Source of the DNA: Sediminispirochaeta smaragdinae DSM 11293
GTDB taxonomy: Bacteria; Spirochaetota; Spirochaetia; DSM-16054; Sediminispirochaetaceae
Direction: 5' to 3'
NCBI RefSeq assembly: GCF_000143985.1
Contig: NC_014364.1
Coordinates: 3,658,001-3,722,000 of the forward strand
Length of the DNA: 64,000 nt
The position numbers were made by a program, and so were the translations under genes. Every line of letters starts with the position of its first letter. The stretch's first letter is position 1. The notes beneath the pieces were generated by a model. It was not told the DNA's origin. It worked only from the letters and a program-made list of their open reading frames with translations, and ran no database searches. Shown one piece after another: positions 13,987-40,237 of the stretch.

Positions 13987-15519
13987 ATGCCGCTGAGCGT
14001 AAAAGAATGGACGGCACAGGTTATCAAGCAGGACGAGATCGATAGATACCTCAAAAACGGAAGGGATTTCATCGATGAAGAAGAGATCAAGAGCTTGCTG
14101 CAGAACAACAGGAAGTCAGATAAAACGAGGGTTCGGGATATCCTCGCAAAATCGCTTGCGATTGAACGACTTGGACCGGAAGAAACCGCTGTACTTCTGA
14201 ATGTAAGAGATGATGATCTCTGGGAAGAGATGTACGAAACTGGCCTGAAGGTCAAGCAAAAGGTCTACGATAATCGTATCGTGTTCTTCGCCCCCCTCTA
14301 TTGTTCGAACTATTGTGTAAATAGCTGCCTTTACTGCGGCTTTCGTGCGGAAAACAGCCACGAAAAGCGACGGCGCCTGACCATGGAAGAGGTAAAGCAG
14401 GAGACAGAGGTAATGGTGACCGAAGGGCACAAACGGATGATGATTGTCTACGGCGAGCACCCCCTCTCCGATGTCAACTATATGTGCGATACCATCAGGG
14501 CCGCCTACGAGGTCAAAAAGCCTGCCCCCAGGGGTACGGGCTTCGGACAGATTCGAAGGATCAATGTAAATGCCGCCCCCATGTCCATAGCGGATCTTCA
14601 CAAGCTGTGGGAGGTGGGAATAGGAACCTACCAAGTCTTCCAGGAGACCTATCATAAACCAAGCTATGCATCCCTCCACCCGGCCGGAACCCTCAAGGGA
14701 AACTATCGCTGGCGCCTCTATGCACTGCACAGGGCCATGGATGCGGGTATCGACGATGTCGCCATGGGGGCCCTCTTCGGCCTTTACGATTGGCGTTTCG
14801 AGGTGATGGGACTTTTGCAGCACACCATCGATCTCGAAAATCATTTTGGAATCGGCCCCCACACCATCTCCTTTCCGAGAATGACTCCCGCCAGCGGCTC
14901 AGATTTCAGTGCAAACTCCTCTTATCTTGTCGACGATTCCAGTTTCAAGAAGCTTGTTACCGTCTTGCGTCTTGCGGTCCCCTATACGGGGCTGATCGTA
15001 ACGGCAAGAGAAGCCCCCGGCATCAAGAAAGAGGTGATCAAGGTCGGATGTACCCAGACTGACGCCTCCACCCGGATCGGGATAGGCGGCTATACAGAGA
15101 CCCTCAAGGCCCTGCAGGAGCGGGAGGACTACCCCTACGAACAGGATCAGGATATCCAGCAGTTTACCCTGGGAGAAACCCGCCGCCTCGACGCGGTGAT
15201 GAGGGAATTCGCCGAAATGGGGATGATTTCCTCCTTCTGCACCGCAGGATACCGATGCGGACGAACAGGCGACAAGATCATGGGGCTGCTGAAAAGCTGC
15301 AAAGAGGGAAAGTTCTGCAAGCTCAATGCGGTACTCACCTTTCGTGAATATCTGGATGATTTTGCCTCCCCTGCGACAAAAAAGGTCGGGGAAAAGGTGA
15401 TCGCAAAGGAAATGGAAGAGATTCGGAACGAGCCGTTTTTCAAGAAAGGGACGCTTCTTGCGACCTTCGAGGAGATGCTAAGGCGCACCGAGGCGGGAGA
15501 ACGGGATGTCTATATCTGA
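13987..15519 (+). CDS. hydG: [FeFe]-hydrogenase maturase HydG (tyrosine lyase) with altered auxiliary-cluster ligand
   Basis: 510 residues. HydG is a radical SAM enzyme that splits tyrosine to supply CO and cyanide on an iron-cysteine synthon for the H-cluster. The radical SAM motif is intact: C110-VNS-C114-LY-C117. The C-terminal auxiliary cluster motif, normally CX2CX22C, reads C418-TA-G421 followed after 22 residues by C444, so the second cysteine is glycine; a new cysteine, C424, lies three residues on. The ATG follows AAGGAGG. It starts a coupled operon with an unknown gene, aspartase and hydF. Whether it is fully active or a specialised paralogue is unclear. No hydE is in this window. 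Confidence 0.92.
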   Translation: MPLSVKEWTAQVIKQDEIDRYLKNGRDFIDEEEIKSLLQNNRKSDKTRVRDILAKSLAIERLGPEETAVLLNVRDDDLWEEMYETGLKVKQKVYDNRIVFFAPLYCSNYCVNSCLYCGFRAENSHEKRRRLTMEEVKQETEVMVTEGHKRMMIVYGEHPLSDVNYMCDTIRAAYEVKKPAPRGTGFGQIRRINVNAAPMSIADLHKLWEVGIGTYQVFQETYHKPSYASLHPAGTLKGNYRWRLYALHRAMDAGIDDVAMGALFGLYDWRFEVMGLLQHTIDLENHFGIGPHTISFPRMTPASGSDFSANSSYLVDDSSFKKLVTVLRLAVPYTGLIVTAREAPGIKKEVIKVGCTQTDASTRIGIGGYTETLKALQEREDYPYEQDQDIQQFTLGETRRLDAVMREFAEMGMISSFCTAGYRCGRTGDKIMGLLKSCKEGKFCKLNAVLTFREYLDDFASPATKKVGEKVIAKEMEEIRNEPFFKKGTLLATFEEMLRRTEAGERDVYI

Positions 15520-15811
15520 TCGGATCGGGACCCTTTTCGAGGAAAATCCGGACAGACACTCGGCCCTGCGGCAGGTGTCGGTATGGCTGGAGCGTGAGTT
15601 TGATCAACATGTATGGATCTGCTCTATTTTCGGAAAGCGGTGGGCCTACACCGTCGGGTCTTCAGAGGTGCTGACCGGCCGGAACCGCTGGGATCTTGGC
15701 TCCGGTTGGGGTCTCCTTGCCGATGAGTTGCGTCTTTCCCCTGAGCAGTGGCAGGAGCTCTGTTTGGCTCTTGCGGAATCTTTAAAAGAAAGGGTGGTAA
15801 TGCAGAAATGA
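15506..15811 (+). CDS. Small tryptophan-rich protein of unknown function in the hyd operon
   Basis: 101 residues, not recognised. Six tryptophans (SVW, HVW, KRW, NRW, SGW, EQW) and a compact run of predicted short strands and helices (WICSIFGKRWAYTVGSSE, then a helix SPEQWQELCLALAESLKERV). No signal peptide, membrane helix or cysteine cluster. The ATG lies inside the end of hydG (14-base overlap) and its stop overlaps the aspartase ATG (ATGA), so it is translated with them. That coupling suggests a role linked to HydG, the aspartase or H-cluster assembly, but nothing in the sequence proves it. Confidence 0.75.
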   Translation: MSISDRIGTLFEENPDRHSALRQVSVWLEREFDQHVWICSIFGKRWAYTVGSSEVLTGRNRWDLGSGWGLLADELRLSPEQWQELCLALAESLKERVVMQK

Positions 15812-17217
15812 CGATGGACGGAGAAACCAGACGGGAGCGGGACCTGCTCGGTGAAATGGATATTCCTCGGGATGCCTACTGGGGAATCCACAGCCGAAGG
15901 GCCGCCGTCAATTTTCCTATTTCAAAACAGTCGGTTTCTCCGGAACTGATACACGCCTACGGCATGGTGAAACTGGCCGCCTGCCAGGTAAACCGCGCCC
16001 TTGCAACCTGGGAAAGCCGAAAAGGAGAGGCCATTGAACAGGCCTGTAGCGAGGTGGCAGAGGGGAAATTCGACGAGAGTATCATTGTCGACGCTCTTCA
16101 GGGAGGAGCGGGAACATCTACCAACATGAATGTCAACGAGGTGATCGCAAACAGGGCCCTGGAAATTCTCGACCTTCCAAAGGGTTCCTATCAGGTCATT
16201 TCACCACTCGACGATGTCAATCTCCATCAATCTACCAACGACACCTACCCTACAGCCCTGCGGCTTGCGGCAATTCGTCTTATCGAAGTACTGGAAAAGG
16301 ATATTGTCGCCCTCCAGGAGGCCTTCCAGGCAAAGGAACGGGAGTTCTCCTCTATCGTGAAGATCGGGAGGACTCAGCTTCAGGATGCCGTTCTTACCAC
16401 CCTGGGGAGGGAGATGTCGGCCTATGCCGACGTCCTCTCCAGGGACCGCTGGCGTTTATACAAAACGAAAGAACGTCTGAGAGTGGTAAACCTCGGAGGA
16501 ACGGCAATCGGTACCGGACTGGGAGCCCCCAGAAGCTATATCATGCAGGTAACCGAAAGGCTTAGGGGGCTCACCGGTATCGGCTTTGCCCGGGCGGAAA
16601 ATCTGATCGACGGAACCCAGAATGCAGACGTTTTCGTCGAGGTCTCGGGCCTGTTGAAGGCCTACGCATCGACCCTAGTCAAAATCTCAAATGATCTGAG
16701 GCTTATCTCTTCCGGGCCCCAGGCGGGCTTCGGCGAAATAACGCTGCCCCCCCGCCAGGGGGGCTCCTCGATCATGCCCGGAAAAATCAACCCGGTCATT
16801 CCCGAGGCTGTGGTGCAAAGCGCTTTTATGTATATGGGATACGACCAAGCCATCACCCTGGCCGCCTCATCGGGAAATCTCGAGCTCAATCCATTTCTTC
16901 CCCTTATCGCCCACTGCCTGCTTTCCGGCATCGGCAAGCTGAGCTCGGCGAGCAAGGTCCTGGCGGAGTTTTGCGTCAAAGGGATTAAGGCCCGTAGCGA
17001 TGAAATTGGACGTCACCTTGAAGGGGCCAGCGCCATAGCCACCGCCCTCATTCCCTATATCGGCTATGAAAAAGCCGAAGAGCTCCTTCTTTTTGCAAAA
17101 GAGAAGGGTTCGACCCTCAGGGAAGCCGCGGTGGGGCTCGGGCTCCTGAGTGATGAGCAGTTTACACAGGCAATATCATCCGAGGCGGTCACCCGCCTCG
17201 GCACACCCCAGGAGTAA
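15808..17217 (+). CDS. aspA: Aspartate ammonia-lyase (aspartase/fumarase family)
   Basis: 469 residues, family-typical length. The fold signature GSSIMPGKINP lies at about 319-329; other blocks are RERDLLGEMDIPRDAYWGIHS, AGTSTNMNVNEVIANRA and the substrate-binding HQSTNDTYPTA. The opening and the GSS loop fit aspartase better than fumarase. It should convert L-aspartate to fumarate and ammonia. The ATG at 15808 overlaps the upstream stop codon as ATGA. Its place between hydG and hydF suggests that ammonia release may serve H-cluster assembly, since the bridging amine of the azadithiolate is thought to come from ammonium; this link is inference. Confidence 0.88.
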   Translation: MTMDGETRRERDLLGEMDIPRDAYWGIHSRRAAVNFPISKQSVSPELIHAYGMVKLAACQVNRALATWESRKGEAIEQACSEVAEGKFDESIIVDALQGGAGTSTNMNVNEVIANRALEILDLPKGSYQVISPLDDVNLHQSTNDTYPTALRLAAIRLIEVLEKDIVALQEAFQAKEREFSSIVKIGRTQLQDAVLTTLGREMSAYADVLSRDRWRLYKTKERLRVVNLGGTAIGTGLGAPRSYIMQVTERLRGLTGIGFARAENLIDGTQNADVFVEVSGLLKAYASTLVKISNDLRLISSGPQAGFGEITLPPRQGGSSIMPGKINPVIPEAVVQSAFMYMGYDQAITLAASSGNLELNPFLPLIAHCLLSGIGKLSSASKVLAEFCVKGIKARSDEIGRHLEGASAIATALIPYIGYEKAEELLLFAKEKGSTLREAAVGLGLLSDEQFTQAISSEAVTRLGTPQE

Positions 17218-17220
17218 GGT

Positions 17221-18465
17221 ATGACAAAGACACCGAAGGGCTTGCGCCTCCATATCGGCATCTTCGGAAAGCGCAACGCCGGCAAATCGAGCATCCTCAA
17301 CGCCCTCACGAAACAGCAGGTATCCATTGTTTCCGACCAGGCAGGAACCACCACCGATCCCGTCGAAAAGCCGATGGAGTTGTTACCCCTGGGGCCCGTC
17401 CTTTTTATCGACACGGCAGGCATCGACGACGAAGGGGCCCTCGGCGCCTTGCGGATCGAAAAAAGCCGCAGGGTAATGGACCGGCTGGATATCGCCCTGA
17501 TCGTCATAGAAGGGGAAAAGTGGGACCATTTCGAGGATCTGCTGCTTGGGGAATTCAGGAAGCGGGAAACCCCGGTTATCATCGTCATCAACAAAACAGA
17601 CCTCTACGGAAGGGAGTTCTCCGAGCTCTTCGCCAAGCTGGAGGAAAAGAAGCTTCCCTACGTCCTTGTCAGTGCCAAGGAAGAGAGCGGAATCCTGGAA
17701 TTAAAACAGCGCCTGCTCAAAAGCGTACCCGCAGATTTTGTGAATGAACAGGAGATCATCGGCGATATTGTCAGGGACGGAGAAACGGCAATTTTAGTCG
17801 TCCCTATCGACAAGGAAGCACCCAAGGGACGACTTATCCTGCCCCAGGTACAGACGATCCGCAATATTCTCGATAGCGACGCCTGCTGTATGGTGGTCAA
17901 GGAACGGGAGCTGGCTGCAGCCCTGGAGATGCTTAAAACGCCACCGAAGATCGTGGTCACCGACTCCCAGGCCTTTTTGAAGGTTGCCGCAGATACACCG
18001 GACGATATCCTCATGACCTCCTTTTCCGTGCTCTTCGCCCGCAAACAAGGCGACCTTCTGGAAATGGTCAGGGGGACTCTCGCCATCGATGATTTGAAAT
18101 CGGGAGACAAGATCCTCATAGCCGAGGCCTGCACCCATCATCCCATTGCCGAAGACATCGGTCGGGTAAAAATCCCCCGCTGGCTTACCCAGTACACCGG
18201 AGCAAAGCTTACCTTCGAGCATATCCAGGGCCATGACTTTCCCCCCGACCTCTCCTCCTACAGCCTGGTGATCCACTGCGGGGCCTGTATGACGAACCGC
18301 AGAGAGGTGCTCTCACGCATCATGACCTGCAAGGCCGCAGCTGTGCCCATCACCAATTACGGACTCACCATCGCCTACTCCCTCGGCATCTTCGAACGTG
18401 CCCTGAGGCCTTTTGATTTTGCCTACGACTACTGGAGGAACCGGAACAGAGGACAAAAGGATTGA
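17221..18465 (+). CDS. hydF: [FeFe]-hydrogenase maturation GTPase/scaffold HydF
   Basis: 414 residues. HydF carries the two-iron precursor of the H-cluster and delivers it to the hydrogenase. The N-terminal GTPase is intact: P-loop GKRNAGKS at 16-23, switch DTAG and NKTD. A dimerisation domain follows. The C-terminal cluster-binding motif is intact, C304-x-H306 and H352-C353-x2-C356. It starts 3 bp after the aspartase stop codon and ends the operon. All features look normal, in contrast to the altered HydG. Confidence 0.96.
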   Translation: MTKTPKGLRLHIGIFGKRNAGKSSILNALTKQQVSIVSDQAGTTTDPVEKPMELLPLGPVLFIDTAGIDDEGALGALRIEKSRRVMDRLDIALIVIEGEKWDHFEDLLLGEFRKRETPVIIVINKTDLYGREFSELFAKLEEKKLPYVLVSAKEESGILELKQRLLKSVPADFVNEQEIIGDIVRDGETAILVVPIDKEAPKGRLILPQVQTIRNILDSDACCMVVKERELAAALEMLKTPPKIVVTDSQAFLKVAADTPDDILMTSFSVLFARKQGDLLEMVRGTLAIDDLKSGDKILIAEACTHHPIAEDIGRVKIPRWLTQYTGAKLTFEHIQGHDFPPDLSSYSLVIHCGACMTNRREVLSRIMTCKAAAVPITNYGLTIAYSLGIFERALRPFDFAYDYWRNRNRGQKD

Positions 18466-36301: not shown

Positions 36302-38410
36302 CTACTCCATTTCCGTCTCATGAATGACCGTCATAGTTTCGCGGGACAGCGTTCCGATGGCGGACACCGTTTCACTCATTCCCAGGACTGCGGTCATAAC
36401 ATCATGGTAGACCGTTTGGACCTCGGAGGAGAGGCTTTTCAGGCTCTCCAGAGAGGTAACGATCTGACTTCCTGCCGCCGACATTTCGTCCATCGTATGG
36501 ATGATTGTCAGCATGCTTTCTGCCATGTCCTCAGATCCTTCAATAACCTGCTTCATGGATTGGGTTGTCTTCTGCGATACGGATGCCGTCGTATTGATCC
36601 GTTCCAGCATCTTATCAAGTGTCTGCTGAATAACCAAAGCGTTTTCCCCGCTCATATCGGCTAATCTTCGTATCTCTTCGGCAACTACGGCAAAGCCTTT
36701 TCCCGATTCTCCCGCATGAGCAGCCTCGATCGCGGCATTCATTGAAAGGAGGTTTGTATTCGATGCTACCTGATCAATGATATCGACAAAGTCTCCAATA
36801 CCTTCGACAGATGCACTTAAACTCCCGATAGCCTCAATGGTCTCCTTCATTTCCTCATCACTGGACTGGGCGAATTCTTTCAAAGACGAGATGGATTCCC
36901 GTTTGCTACCGGACAAGACCGAAGTTTCATGTACGGACTGGATCATCTGTTCCACAGCACTTGATGATTCCTCTATTGCTTTAAACTGATCCTCGCTTTT
37001 TCGTTCGACATCCGCTGTGATCTCCTTGACATTGAGAATGAGGTGTTCTGCCTTCTCTATTTTCTCATGGAGGTTCCTTGCAAGATCTATCATCATATTC
37101 TGCTGCTTTGTCACAATTGCCTGCCGGTAGTGGTGACAATTTTCGGGTTTGTTAAGACCATTAAAGATGGCAAATGCCATGGCCTCACAGGTTCCGTAGC
37201 CGCAGGAGGCACAATTCAGAAAATCCTCTTCATTCTCTTTCAACATGCTTTTGTAGATTTGTTCAAGTTCCTCGGCATTGGGCGTTTTTAAAGAAAAATT
37301 ATTCGAAAGATCGCGGTACTTTCGCCTGTACAGTCCCTCGTTCCAGTACTGTGAGATGATCTTATCAACTTTTTTCGCCTGGACCTTCGGTTTCAGAGGA
37401 CCCTTGCCATATTTCCGGATGGCCTCGGATCTTCGTTTTTTTATAGGATACTCGATCTCGTCGGCATGTGCCTGGGAAAGCCCCGTCCCTGTTCCGCCGT
37501 TGCATCCAAGATCACAATTGAGGCAGTCCACAAGGCGCGGCTGCATCCCCTTATCAAGAACAGCCTTAAGCTCGGCAAGATACTCATACATCCCGGGAAC
37601 ACCCTCAATCTTCCTGATCCCCGAAAGGAGTTCGGGCGAAGAACGTTCCACCGTCTGCATCAGCCCTCCGGGCGTCGAAAACATGACAGCACGCTCGGCA
37701 TCCGGGCCGGTAAAGTCGACCTCCGGATAAGAAGAAAGGGTAATCCCTTTAGCCTTCATATATGCTTTCAGCATAAGGAAGGTGACATTGTAGTCTCCCA
37801 TCTTTGTTTCCGCAAATTCCCGTTTTTTTGCAATGCAGGGAGAAAGAACGGCAACGTTATGGTCTGCAAACTCTTTTCGATATTCCCGAATCATGGCAAT
37901 GGTATGAAGCATAGGGCTGTGTGCCGGCGCAAGATAAGGGATGAGCTCCGGATGATATATTTCTATGTAGGTAACAATGGCAGGACAGGGCTGGGCTATG
38001 ACAAGATCGGGATCATCCCTTTTGATATGATTGATATAGGAGGCAACGGTAAGCTCGGCCCCAAAGCTTACATCAAAAAAGGCCTCAATGCCTAAGGACC
38101 CTAAATACCCGTTCAGCCTGAGGTAAGAATCGGGGAAACTTGAAGCGACGGAAGGGGCAACGATGGCGATCATGGGCTCTTTGCGTGATAAGGCATCGAA
38201 AAAGGCCTCTGTATCGTCAACCACTGATCGCGCATTGTGCGTGCAGGCTTCTATGCATTTCCCGCACCCTATACAGAGGTCATGATGGATCGTTACGGTA
38301 GAGCCGCTTCCGTCAATGCAGTATTTAACCGGACAAGCAGCTATACAGGCATGGCAGTTTACACATTTACTTTCATCAATCTGTATTACTGGTGCAAGGC
38401 TCTGTTTCAT
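36302..38410 (-). CDS. Soluble chemoreceptor fused to an [FeFe]-hydrogenase-like H-cluster domain
   Basis: 702 residues. Order: two [4Fe-4S] ferredoxin motifs ([11 protein letters not shown] at 16-26, [11 protein letters not shown] at 46-56); an [FeFe]-hydrogenase large-subunit-like domain at about 80-340; a four-cysteine Fe-S motif at C400, C403, C408 and C425; then a methyl-accepting signalling hairpin with the tip [17 protein letters not shown]-cluster ligands are kept: C142, C192 with K195, C299 and C303. The usual TSCCPAW reads AQPCPAI, so the proton-relay cysteine is a proline. No membrane helix. It is probably a cytoplasmic H2 or redox chemoreceptor, not a turnover enzyme. The ATG at 38410 follows GGAGG by 10 bases; the ATG at 38419 is one base from it. 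Confidence 0.9.
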
Positions 38411-38502
38411 TAAGAGCATTCCTCCGCATTAGATATGTTGGCAATGCATCAAAGCATAATCTATTGGGACCGGCCATGCTAAGGTTTTTGGTAACTTTTA
38501 TT

Positions 38503-38594: not shown

Positions 38595-39002
38595 CTACTT
38601 TCCCCGAACCATGAGCAGCGGAACGTCCGTCTCATGTTTCAGATAATCAGAGACGCTTCCGAACAAGATATCGGAAAAGGTTTTGTGGCCGTGGGTTGCC
38701 ATGGCCACAAGATCGTAGTCACCTTCCCCTATTTCCTTCACCAATTCTTTTTCGGGTTCCCCACTCAAAAGGAGTTTTTCGGCATTGATTCCGGCATCGC
38801 GGAATTGCTTGAGTACCGGATCAAGAAAACGATCGGCCTTGGCCTTTAGAGCGCGGTCCTGGTCGATGGTATGAGAGTGAACGACATGGGCAAGGGTCAC
38901 CCTGCCGTTTCCGCAACGGCTCATGTCGATGATCTTCGGAATAATGGCATGATCGACAAGGGAGCAATCCAAGAGTAACAAAATATGGGAAAAAGGACAC
39001 AT
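38595..39002 (-). CDS. Universal stress protein (UspA family)
   Basis: 135 residues with the Usp fold: ILLLLDCSLVDHAIIPKI at the start, then LAHVVHSHT, and the ATP-type end motif LVAMATHGHKTFSDILFGSVSDYLKHETDVPLLMVR (G-2x-G-9x-G-S/T). The ATG at 39002 overlaps the transporter stop codon as TGATG, so the two are cotranslated. Usp domains are often paired with transporters and may regulate them; here the partner is an Nramp metal transporter. Confidence 0.9.
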   Translation of the reverse strand: MCPFSHILLLLDCSLVDHAIIPKIIDMSRCGNGRVTLAHVVHSHTIDQDRALKAKADRFLDPVLKQFRDAGINAEKLLLSGEPEKELVKEIGEGDYDLVAMATHGHKTFSDILFGSVSDYLKHETDVPLLMVRGK

Positions 39003-40237
39003 CAGGCGGCACCTCCCGTAAGGGTCGAATAGAGAAGATAGATATTCAGGCCAATGACGAGGAGAGAGATAGCCGAAGCCAGCAGGAATTCCGGCAATTT
39101 TGTCCTGAACACCCCCATAAGAGATTTCTTTCGACACAACAACAGCAAGGGCACCAGGGTAAAGGGAAGCTGGATGCTTAAAATCACCTGGCTGAATATC
39201 AAAATCTTGTAGGTATCGATTGCCGCCACAATGATGACGAAGGAGGGAATGGCCGTTATAAAGGTCGAAATACGATACAGCAGGGTTTTCGGGTCTTCGG
39301 GTTTTCCGAGGAAGCCCGTGATGACATTGACCTCGGCCATGGAAGAGGTTACCGAAGAACCGACACCGGAAAAAACAAGGGCAACGGCGAAAAGGAAAGC
39401 GGCAAAGCTTCCCGCCAAGGGCACCAAGGTTTTCGAAGCATCCTCGATGCTGGTTACTACAACACCGTTGCCGTGAAACACCCTTGCGGCGACTATGATC
39501 ATTGCTGCGTTCACGACCAGACCAAGCAGCAGTGCGGAGAGGGTATCGATATGTTCATATTTCAAAAGAGAAAGCTTTTTCTCATCGTTTATTCCCCACT
39601 CCCTGGAGTGGATAACATTCGAATGGAGGAAGATATTATGAGGCATCACCACCGCGCCCAACATTGCCATGGCGATATAGATGCTGGAGGAATCAAGACG
39701 GGGAATCACAAGGGCCGGAAAGACCTCATGCCATACCGGTTTGACGATGGCAAGTTCCGCAACATAGCACAAGGCAATAATCCCCAGAAAAGCAACGATG
39801 ATCTTCTCCAGCTGGTGATAACGCTGCCCCACGATCAGAAAAACCTCGAGGAAGACCGTCACAAGAGCCCCCAGCCAGAGAGGCAGTCCCAAAAGCAGAT
39901 TGAAGCCGATCGCACCGCCCAAAAGTTCGGCAACATCGGTTGCGACACAGGCGGCAACGATCGAAATCCCCAGAAAAAAAGATACGGGTCGGGGAAAGCC
40001 ATCACGAATATTGACCGCCAGAGACTTTCCCGTTGCAATGCCCAACTTCGCAGCCATATTCTGCACAACAATAAGCATCAGGGTGCTTAAAGAAATCACC
40101 CATAAAAGGCTATAGCCGAAGCGGGATCCACCCTCTATATTGGTGGCCCAGTTGCCGGGATCAATAAAGCCTACAGTCACAAGAAACCCCGGTCCCAGAA
40201 AGGCAAGAATTGTTTTGAATCGCTTTTTGATGCCCAT
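39002..40237 (-). CDS. Nramp-family divalent metal transporter
   Basis: 411 residues, eleven predicted membrane helices. The metal-binding motifs of the family are intact: DPGN in the first helix (VGFIDPGNWATNIEGG) and MPH in the sixth (GAVVMPHNIFLHS). These indicate proton-coupled uptake of Mn2+ or Fe2+. The start follows GAGGTAGCT. It is the first gene of a two-gene unit with uspA. A CATAAT near 40255 could be a -10 element; no clear MntR or Fur box was recognised. Confidence 0.92.
   Translation of the reverse strand: MGIKKRFKTILAFLGPGFLVTVGFIDPGNWATNIEGGSRFGYSLLWVISLSTLMLIVVQNMAAKLGIATGKSLAVNIRDGFPRPVSFFLGISIVAACVATDVAELLGGAIGFNLLLGLPLWLGALVTVFLEVFLIVGQRYHQLEKIIVAFLGIIALCYVAELAIVKPVWHEVFPALVIPRLDSSSIYIAMAMLGAVVMPHNIFLHSNVIHSREWGINDEKKLSLLKYEHIDTLSALLLGLVVNAAMIIVAARVFHGNGVVVTSIEDASKTLVPLAGSFAAFLFAVALVFSGVGSSVTSSMAEVNVITGFLGKPEDPKTLLYRISTFITAIPSFVIIVAAIDTYKILIFSQVILSIQLPFTLVPLLLLCRKKSLMGVFRTKLPEFLLASAISLLVIGLNIYLLYSTLTGGAA

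Follow-up and report, generated by a model that had tools for sequence, protein, structure and literature searches.

A putative cytoplasmic chemoreceptor with a sensory-type [FeFe]-hydrogenase input domain in Sediminispirochaeta smaragdinae

Results

A hydrogenase-type domain is fused to a chemotaxis signalling hairpin

The window analysed here, a 64-kb stretch of the single-contig S. smaragdinae genome (4,653,970 bp), carries a gene in which an [FeFe]-hydrogenase H-domain is fused to a methyl-accepting chemotaxis protein (MCP) hairpin, as well as two genes for H-cluster maturases (Table 1). We placed the start of the receptor gene at ATG 38410 because GGAGG lies at a spacing of 10 nt from it, versus 1 nt for an alternative ATG at 38419, which was rejected. 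A plus-strand reading of the same interval is interrupted by stops and was also rejected; the first-pass annotation had named no strand. A weak scan found no promoter-like site upstream of the gene.

Table 1. Features of the receptor gene and of the maturase genes in the window (residue numbers refer to the receptor)
Feature	Position	Strand	Description and evidence
hydG, H-cluster maturase	13987..15519	plus	TIGR03955, 441.5 bits vs cut-off 312
Aspartate ammonia-lyase-like gene between hydG and hydF	15748..17217	plus	PRK12273, subfamily model, 617.8 bits vs cut-off 510
hydF, H-cluster maturase	17221..18465	plus	TIGR03918, 564.8 bits vs cut-off 325.6
[FeFe]-hydrogenase H-domain/MCP fusion gene	36302..38410	minus	702 aa; ATG 38410, stop 36302; ORF, RBS spacing, Pfam
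MCP signalling hairpin, residues 426-702	36305..37135	minus	Tip near 566; Pfam, AF2 helices
Hairpin tip, residues 558-570	36701..36739	minus	Alignment
C-terminal Fe-S domain PF04060, residues 398-426	37133..37219	minus	Pfam E 4e-6, above its cut-off
H-cluster domain Fe_hyd_lg_C, residues 79-306	37493..38176	minus	Pfam E 8e-31; fold match
L3 motif D295-C296-L297-N-C299-D-L-G-C303	37502..37528	minus	C299 and C303 ligands
L2 motif S190-P-C192-I-A-K195	37826..37843	minus	C192 ligand; K195 CN-binding Lys
L1 motif Q140-P141-C142-P143 (canonical S-C-C-P)	37982..37993	minus	C142 cluster ligand; P141 replaces proton-relay Cys
Two [4Fe-4S] ferredoxin motifs, residues 8-62	38225..38389	minus	Pfam Fer4 x2; invariant in alignments
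GGAGG, likely ribosome-binding site	38421..38425	minus	10 nt 5' of ATG 38410; inferred from sequence

The first-pass annotation had described a cytoplasmic protein with two ferredoxin clusters, an H-domain, a four-cysteine Fe-S motif and a full MCP hairpin, and Pfam matches and alignments bear out each of these parts. The ferredoxin ligands are C16, C19, C22 and C26, followed by C46, C49, C52 and C56, and the fourth Fe-S motif (C400, C403, C408, C425) has the spacing Cx2Cx4Cx16C, which is also present in hydrogenases of groups C and D (PMC8163306). The Pfam MCPsignal match covers residues 511-666 (E = 2.5e-29), and the hairpin tip is canonical and conserved in the alignment; by analogy with Tsr, it would be the region that contacts CheA and CheW. 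The cytoplasmic location is upheld by a search for membrane helices, which found none in the protein, the top 19-residue Kyte-Doolittle mean being 1.23. Chance similarity was excluded by the E-values of the Pfam matches (1e-29 to 1e-31) and the invariant ligands.

The H-cluster ligands are retained and the proton path is replaced

In an alignment to canonical hydrogenases, C142, C192, C299 and C303 coincide with the four H-cluster ligands and K195 with the CN-binding lysine, and a proline stands at the position of the proton-relay cysteine, all as first annotated. Comparison with a canonical paralogue of the same genome (L002) showed that the group A proton path is replaced, C299 corresponding to P141, E279 to Y125, E282 to H128, R286 to D132 and S319 to A161. 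Position numbers are those of CpI, anchored on the TSCC motif. Two further active-site residues differ, Met353 of CpI being Ser (S190) and Met497 being Leu (L297) in the receptor. This Ser353/Leu497 pair has been reported for TamHydS (PMC8163306). A bound [2Fe] subsite and H2 turnover in the receptor are putative.

The hairpin begins at the last Fe-S ligand in the structure model

An AlphaFold2 (AF2) model built from 68 sequences has a pLDDT of about 97 over the ferredoxin and H-domain part and about 95 across the Fe-S domain; most of the MCP arms, with block means of 48-79, are modelled at low to moderate confidence. When the model was compared with PDB structures by VIA-align, the ferredoxin and H-domain part matched CbA5H (8zqd) with Z 34.0 and CpI (4xdc) with Z 30.8 and an rmsd of 2.9 A over 349 residues; the structural check proposed with the first-pass annotation was made at this level, that of the fold. 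The MCP part is modelled as a pair of long helices that run antiparallel (426-565 and 567-701). In the model, the receptor coiled coil begins directly after C425, the last Fe-S ligand, with no HAMP domain and no linker. C425 and the tip lie 141 residues apart in this receptor and in many relatives, and 8 of the 17 distinct lengths equal 1 modulo 7 (binomial p 0.001), which fits a rigid, heptad-phased join; the pattern is not specific to it, because MCP length classes in general differ by heptads. Short MCP hairpins, with arms of about 80-97 residues, were seen in L020, L040, L047, L056 and other relatives, possibly with a different array geometry.

The receptor belongs to a widespread family beside group C

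A scan of genomes yielded 80 loci with identities of about 46-74%, and these, together with the Spirochaetota matches, gave a family set of 123 rows (about 115 distinct) from about a dozen phyla. The motifs QPCP, SPC..K and DCLNC..GC are common to nearly all rows. The H-cluster ligands are invariant in every row that has a residue there (118-123 of 123), as are the ligands of the three accessory Fe-S clusters across the family alignments; K195 is conserved in 120 of 123 rows, P141 in 118 of 123, and the A-P-(S/A) segment is retained. Two extra cysteines are clade-specific: C31, in the ferredoxin region, occurs in 119 of the 122 rows with a residue there, and C296, within the L3 motif, in 117 of 118, both being absent from all seven outgroup proteins compared.

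The first-pass annotation had called two things unusual, the domain order and the change in the first motif. This view did not survive: about 115 relatives share both, which is why we do not regard the architecture as unusual, about 10% of the sensory sequences in HydDB have Pro at this position of the first motif (PMC10055695), and the architecture is already a class in HydDB, C2 (PMC5037454).

We placed the receptor among [FeFe]-hydrogenases in a tree of 55 rows, in which the receptor clade has a support of 100/99 and is sister to the group C rows L005, L091 and L096, including R. albus HydS (95/85). The phylogenetic comparison with groups C and D suggested with the first-pass annotation hence places the clade beside group C; for group D, the comparison is with the D-like paralogue L007, which falls outside group C plus the receptor clade on a long branch, in a tree that holds no true TamHydS row. 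Both L005 and L007 come from S. smaragdinae itself, which has seven Fe_hyd_lg_C proteins in all: the group C-type protein (L005:1273-2997) has the L1 motif STACP and a PAS-like region after its Fe-S domain, and the group D-like protein (L007:1258-2598) has the L1 motif SSFCP.

The MCP hairpin is the C-terminal end of most family members, in roughly ten phyla, and a PAS-histidine kinase takes its place in a minority. A division of these relatives into two clean clades was rejected, since the tree calls for at least three output changes; the output domains have thus probably been swapped more than once, in a part of the tree with few well-supported branches. One locus (L022), on a contig named Alphaproteobacteria, is almost equal to the Bacteroidales locus L020 and probably comes from a misnamed bin.

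Relatives lie among che and maturase genes

In S. smaragdinae, which has about 29 MCP loci, no catalytic hydrogenase or che genes lie beside the receptor gene in the window, and none of its neighbours there (Nramp and Usp genes upstream, a YeiL-like Crp gene downstream) indicates H2 metabolism. Two minus-strand ORFs among these neighbours, that of the Nramp transporter (39002-40237) and the UspA-like one (38595-39137), share about 135 bases, read in different frames; the UspA-like ORF probably has a later start. Among relatives, a Rifleibacterium contig (L009:2885-11240) has CheA, the receptor, CheW, CheB and CheR in one gene run, confirmed by Pfam. The receptor gene adjoins CheB and CheR in contigs of Brevinematales and Chitinispirillum, and CheW and CheR in one of Bacteroidales. 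The receptor is predicted to be reversibly methylated and to control CheA, and the CheR and CheB neighbours of some relatives give this indirect support.

HydE is encoded outside the window, at position 3173724 of the genome, so that HydE, HydF and HydG are all present. In another genome (G286, L185:2068-8042), hydE, the receptor gene on the opposite strand, hydG and hydF lie together. Across 247 Spirochaetota genomes, HydG was found in 30 of the 44 with the receptor versus 52 of the 203 without it (odds ratio 6.2, p 2e-7, the p value being uncorrected for kinship). In a first mixed set, mostly of MAGs, a gap in HydG may reflect assembly loss. Ten Spirochaetota genomes with the receptor, 97-99% complete (G113, G136, G188, G203, G207, G241, G247, G265, G271 and G282, two of them in 2 contigs), had no HydE, HydF or HydG over the cut-off, and an eleventh (G295) had HydF only. 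These genomes represent either a true absence, with maturation by other means, or a data gap. All eleven also hold another Fe_hyd_lg_C protein, with TSCC or TTCC as its first motif. Of the 27 genomes checked for a further Fe_hyd_lg_C protein, 27 have one. We did not accept that a receptor without HydG means a receptor without an H-cluster: because TSCC-type hydrogenases of group A or B share those genomes, the absence of maturases concerns [FeFe] proteins generally and not the receptor alone.

Discussion

A candidate H2 chemoreceptor

We consider it fairly probable that the protein works in the cytoplasm as a chemoreceptor, taking its input from a sensory [FeFe]-hydrogenase module of group-C type and responding to H2 via the H-cluster. 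HydE, HydF and HydG of the cell would mature the H-domain, and the H-cluster would bind H2 and split it slowly. With the usual proton path removed, the state of the H-domain would track H2, or the ferredoxin redox level set by H2, and would not serve fast turnover; the first-pass preference for a sensor over a fast enzyme agrees with the replaced path, with the position of the clade beside group C and with the che and maturase genes around relatives. A change of charge or shape would then cross the Fe-S domain, with C425 as its last ligand, and enter the MCP coiled coil, which at the hairpin tip would set the activity of CheA and hence swimming direction. The C-terminal cluster of TamHydS is not redox-changed by H2 (PMC13104023), and for this reason we favour a change of shape over electron flow; by analogy, signalling by the redox state of the C-terminal cluster of the receptor is doubtful. 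Like this mode of coupling, the occupancy of the site by an H-cluster, H2 as the stimulus and the sign of the response are what we infer.

The receptor could instead sense redox state as such: its ferredoxin clusters would equilibrate with the ferredoxin pool, CheA would be informed of oxygen stress or reductant pressure (energy taxis), and the H-domain, whether or not it holds the [2Fe] subsite, would act chiefly as an electron sink and scaffold. The invariance of all three accessory clusters, the loss of the proton path and the near-complete genomes without maturases are compatible with such a sensor. Retention of all H-cluster ligands, of K195 and of the A-P-(S/A) segment, the association of HydG with the receptor among Spirochaetota and the linkage to hydE, hydG and hydF in G286 count against it, and we hold it to be unlikely.

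The same maturase-negative genomes would be explained if the hydrogenase-fold site of the clade held no H-cluster, or could not be supplied with one in some lineages, and had become, with C31 and C296, a different Fe-S sensor driving CheA, to which we give a low probability. That the receptor is altogether a [4Fe-4S] protein, in which the fold was kept, the organometallic site lost and C31 and C296 put to other cluster chemistry, seems to us quite improbable: the near-invariance of the two cysteines in the clade and their absence from the outgroup would suit it, as would the ten genomes, but [FeFe] hydrogenases of catalytic type, their TSCC motifs intact, are present in those genomes, and the ligand set is strictly conserved, K195 nearly so. 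An output other than swimming, in which the hairpin of some or all members serves a chemosensory-type pathway with an output such as development or a second messenger, is very improbable. The self-contained Rifleibacterium operon, the short hairpin arms of some relatives and the kinases that replace the MCP in a minority speak for it; the canonical tip and the many MCP loci of S. smaragdinae, with no dedicated che cluster beside the receptor gene, speak against it.

Taxis toward H2 has reportedly been seen in the methanogen Methanococcus maripaludis. We found no H2 chemoreceptor in the literature searched, nor an experiment on any family member, and the H2-responsive receptor proposed here would make the family a concrete candidate in about a dozen phyla. 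The che operon of Rifleibacterium would allow the signal from H2 to CheA to be rebuilt in vitro. The work on TamHydS leaves open how a sensory hydrogenase transmits its signal, and the direct join between Fe-S domain and receptor helix offers an answer that can be tested.

Relation to known systems

HydDB defines an [FeFe] group C2, named in 2016 as "Chemotactic (putative)", in which a sensory-type H-domain is coupled to a methyl-accepting chemotaxis protein and H2 sensing is proposed (PMC5037454). An H-domain of the group C lineage and an MCPsignal domain are found in one chain in the receptor, and no clear difference from C2 was found; by the definition of the class and the position in the tree, the receptor would be of the C2 type. 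The idea is older: Warnecke et al. (2007), as cited in PMC4704652, hypothesised that sensory hydrogenases orient termite-gut cells in H2 gradients, and Ballor, Paulsen and Leadbetter (2012) dealt with H2 sensors of termite-gut treponemes, judging by the title as cited in PMC4070709. Together with C2, this agrees with the statement of the first-pass annotation that sensory [FeFe]-hydrogenases linked to kinases or receptors had been proposed before. The treponeme proteins resemble the present one as sensory H-domain proteins proposed for orientation in H2 gradients. The abstract of the 2012 paper is said to mention chemotaxis.

TmHydS and RaHydS of group C share with the receptor the two ferredoxin motifs, the H-domain and the Cx2Cx4Cx16C domain, and in TmHydS the C299 of CpI numbering is likewise lost. 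They differ in carrying a PAS domain where the receptor has an MCP; TmHydS has Ala at position 299 (PMC10407848) and Gly in place of M353, where the receptor has Pro and Ser, and RaHydS lacks both C31 and C296. TamHydS (group D, M2e) is similar in the changes of M353 to Ser and M497 to Leu, the Cx2Cx4Cx16C domain and the lost proton path (PMC8163306), but has no output domain and Ala at 299. The receptor shares with group D (M2e) the change of Met353 to Ser or Thr (here Ser) and the lack of a PAS domain, and it has none of the residues of the group A catalytic proton path (C299, E279, E282 and S319).

In conclusion, given the C2 class, the 2007 proposal on H2 gradients and the record of Pro299, the receptor belongs to a kind that is already described, with a putative function. 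What is added here is the clade signature of two extra cysteines, the linker-free join of Fe-S domain and receptor, the linkages to che operons and maturases, and the maturase-negative genomes.
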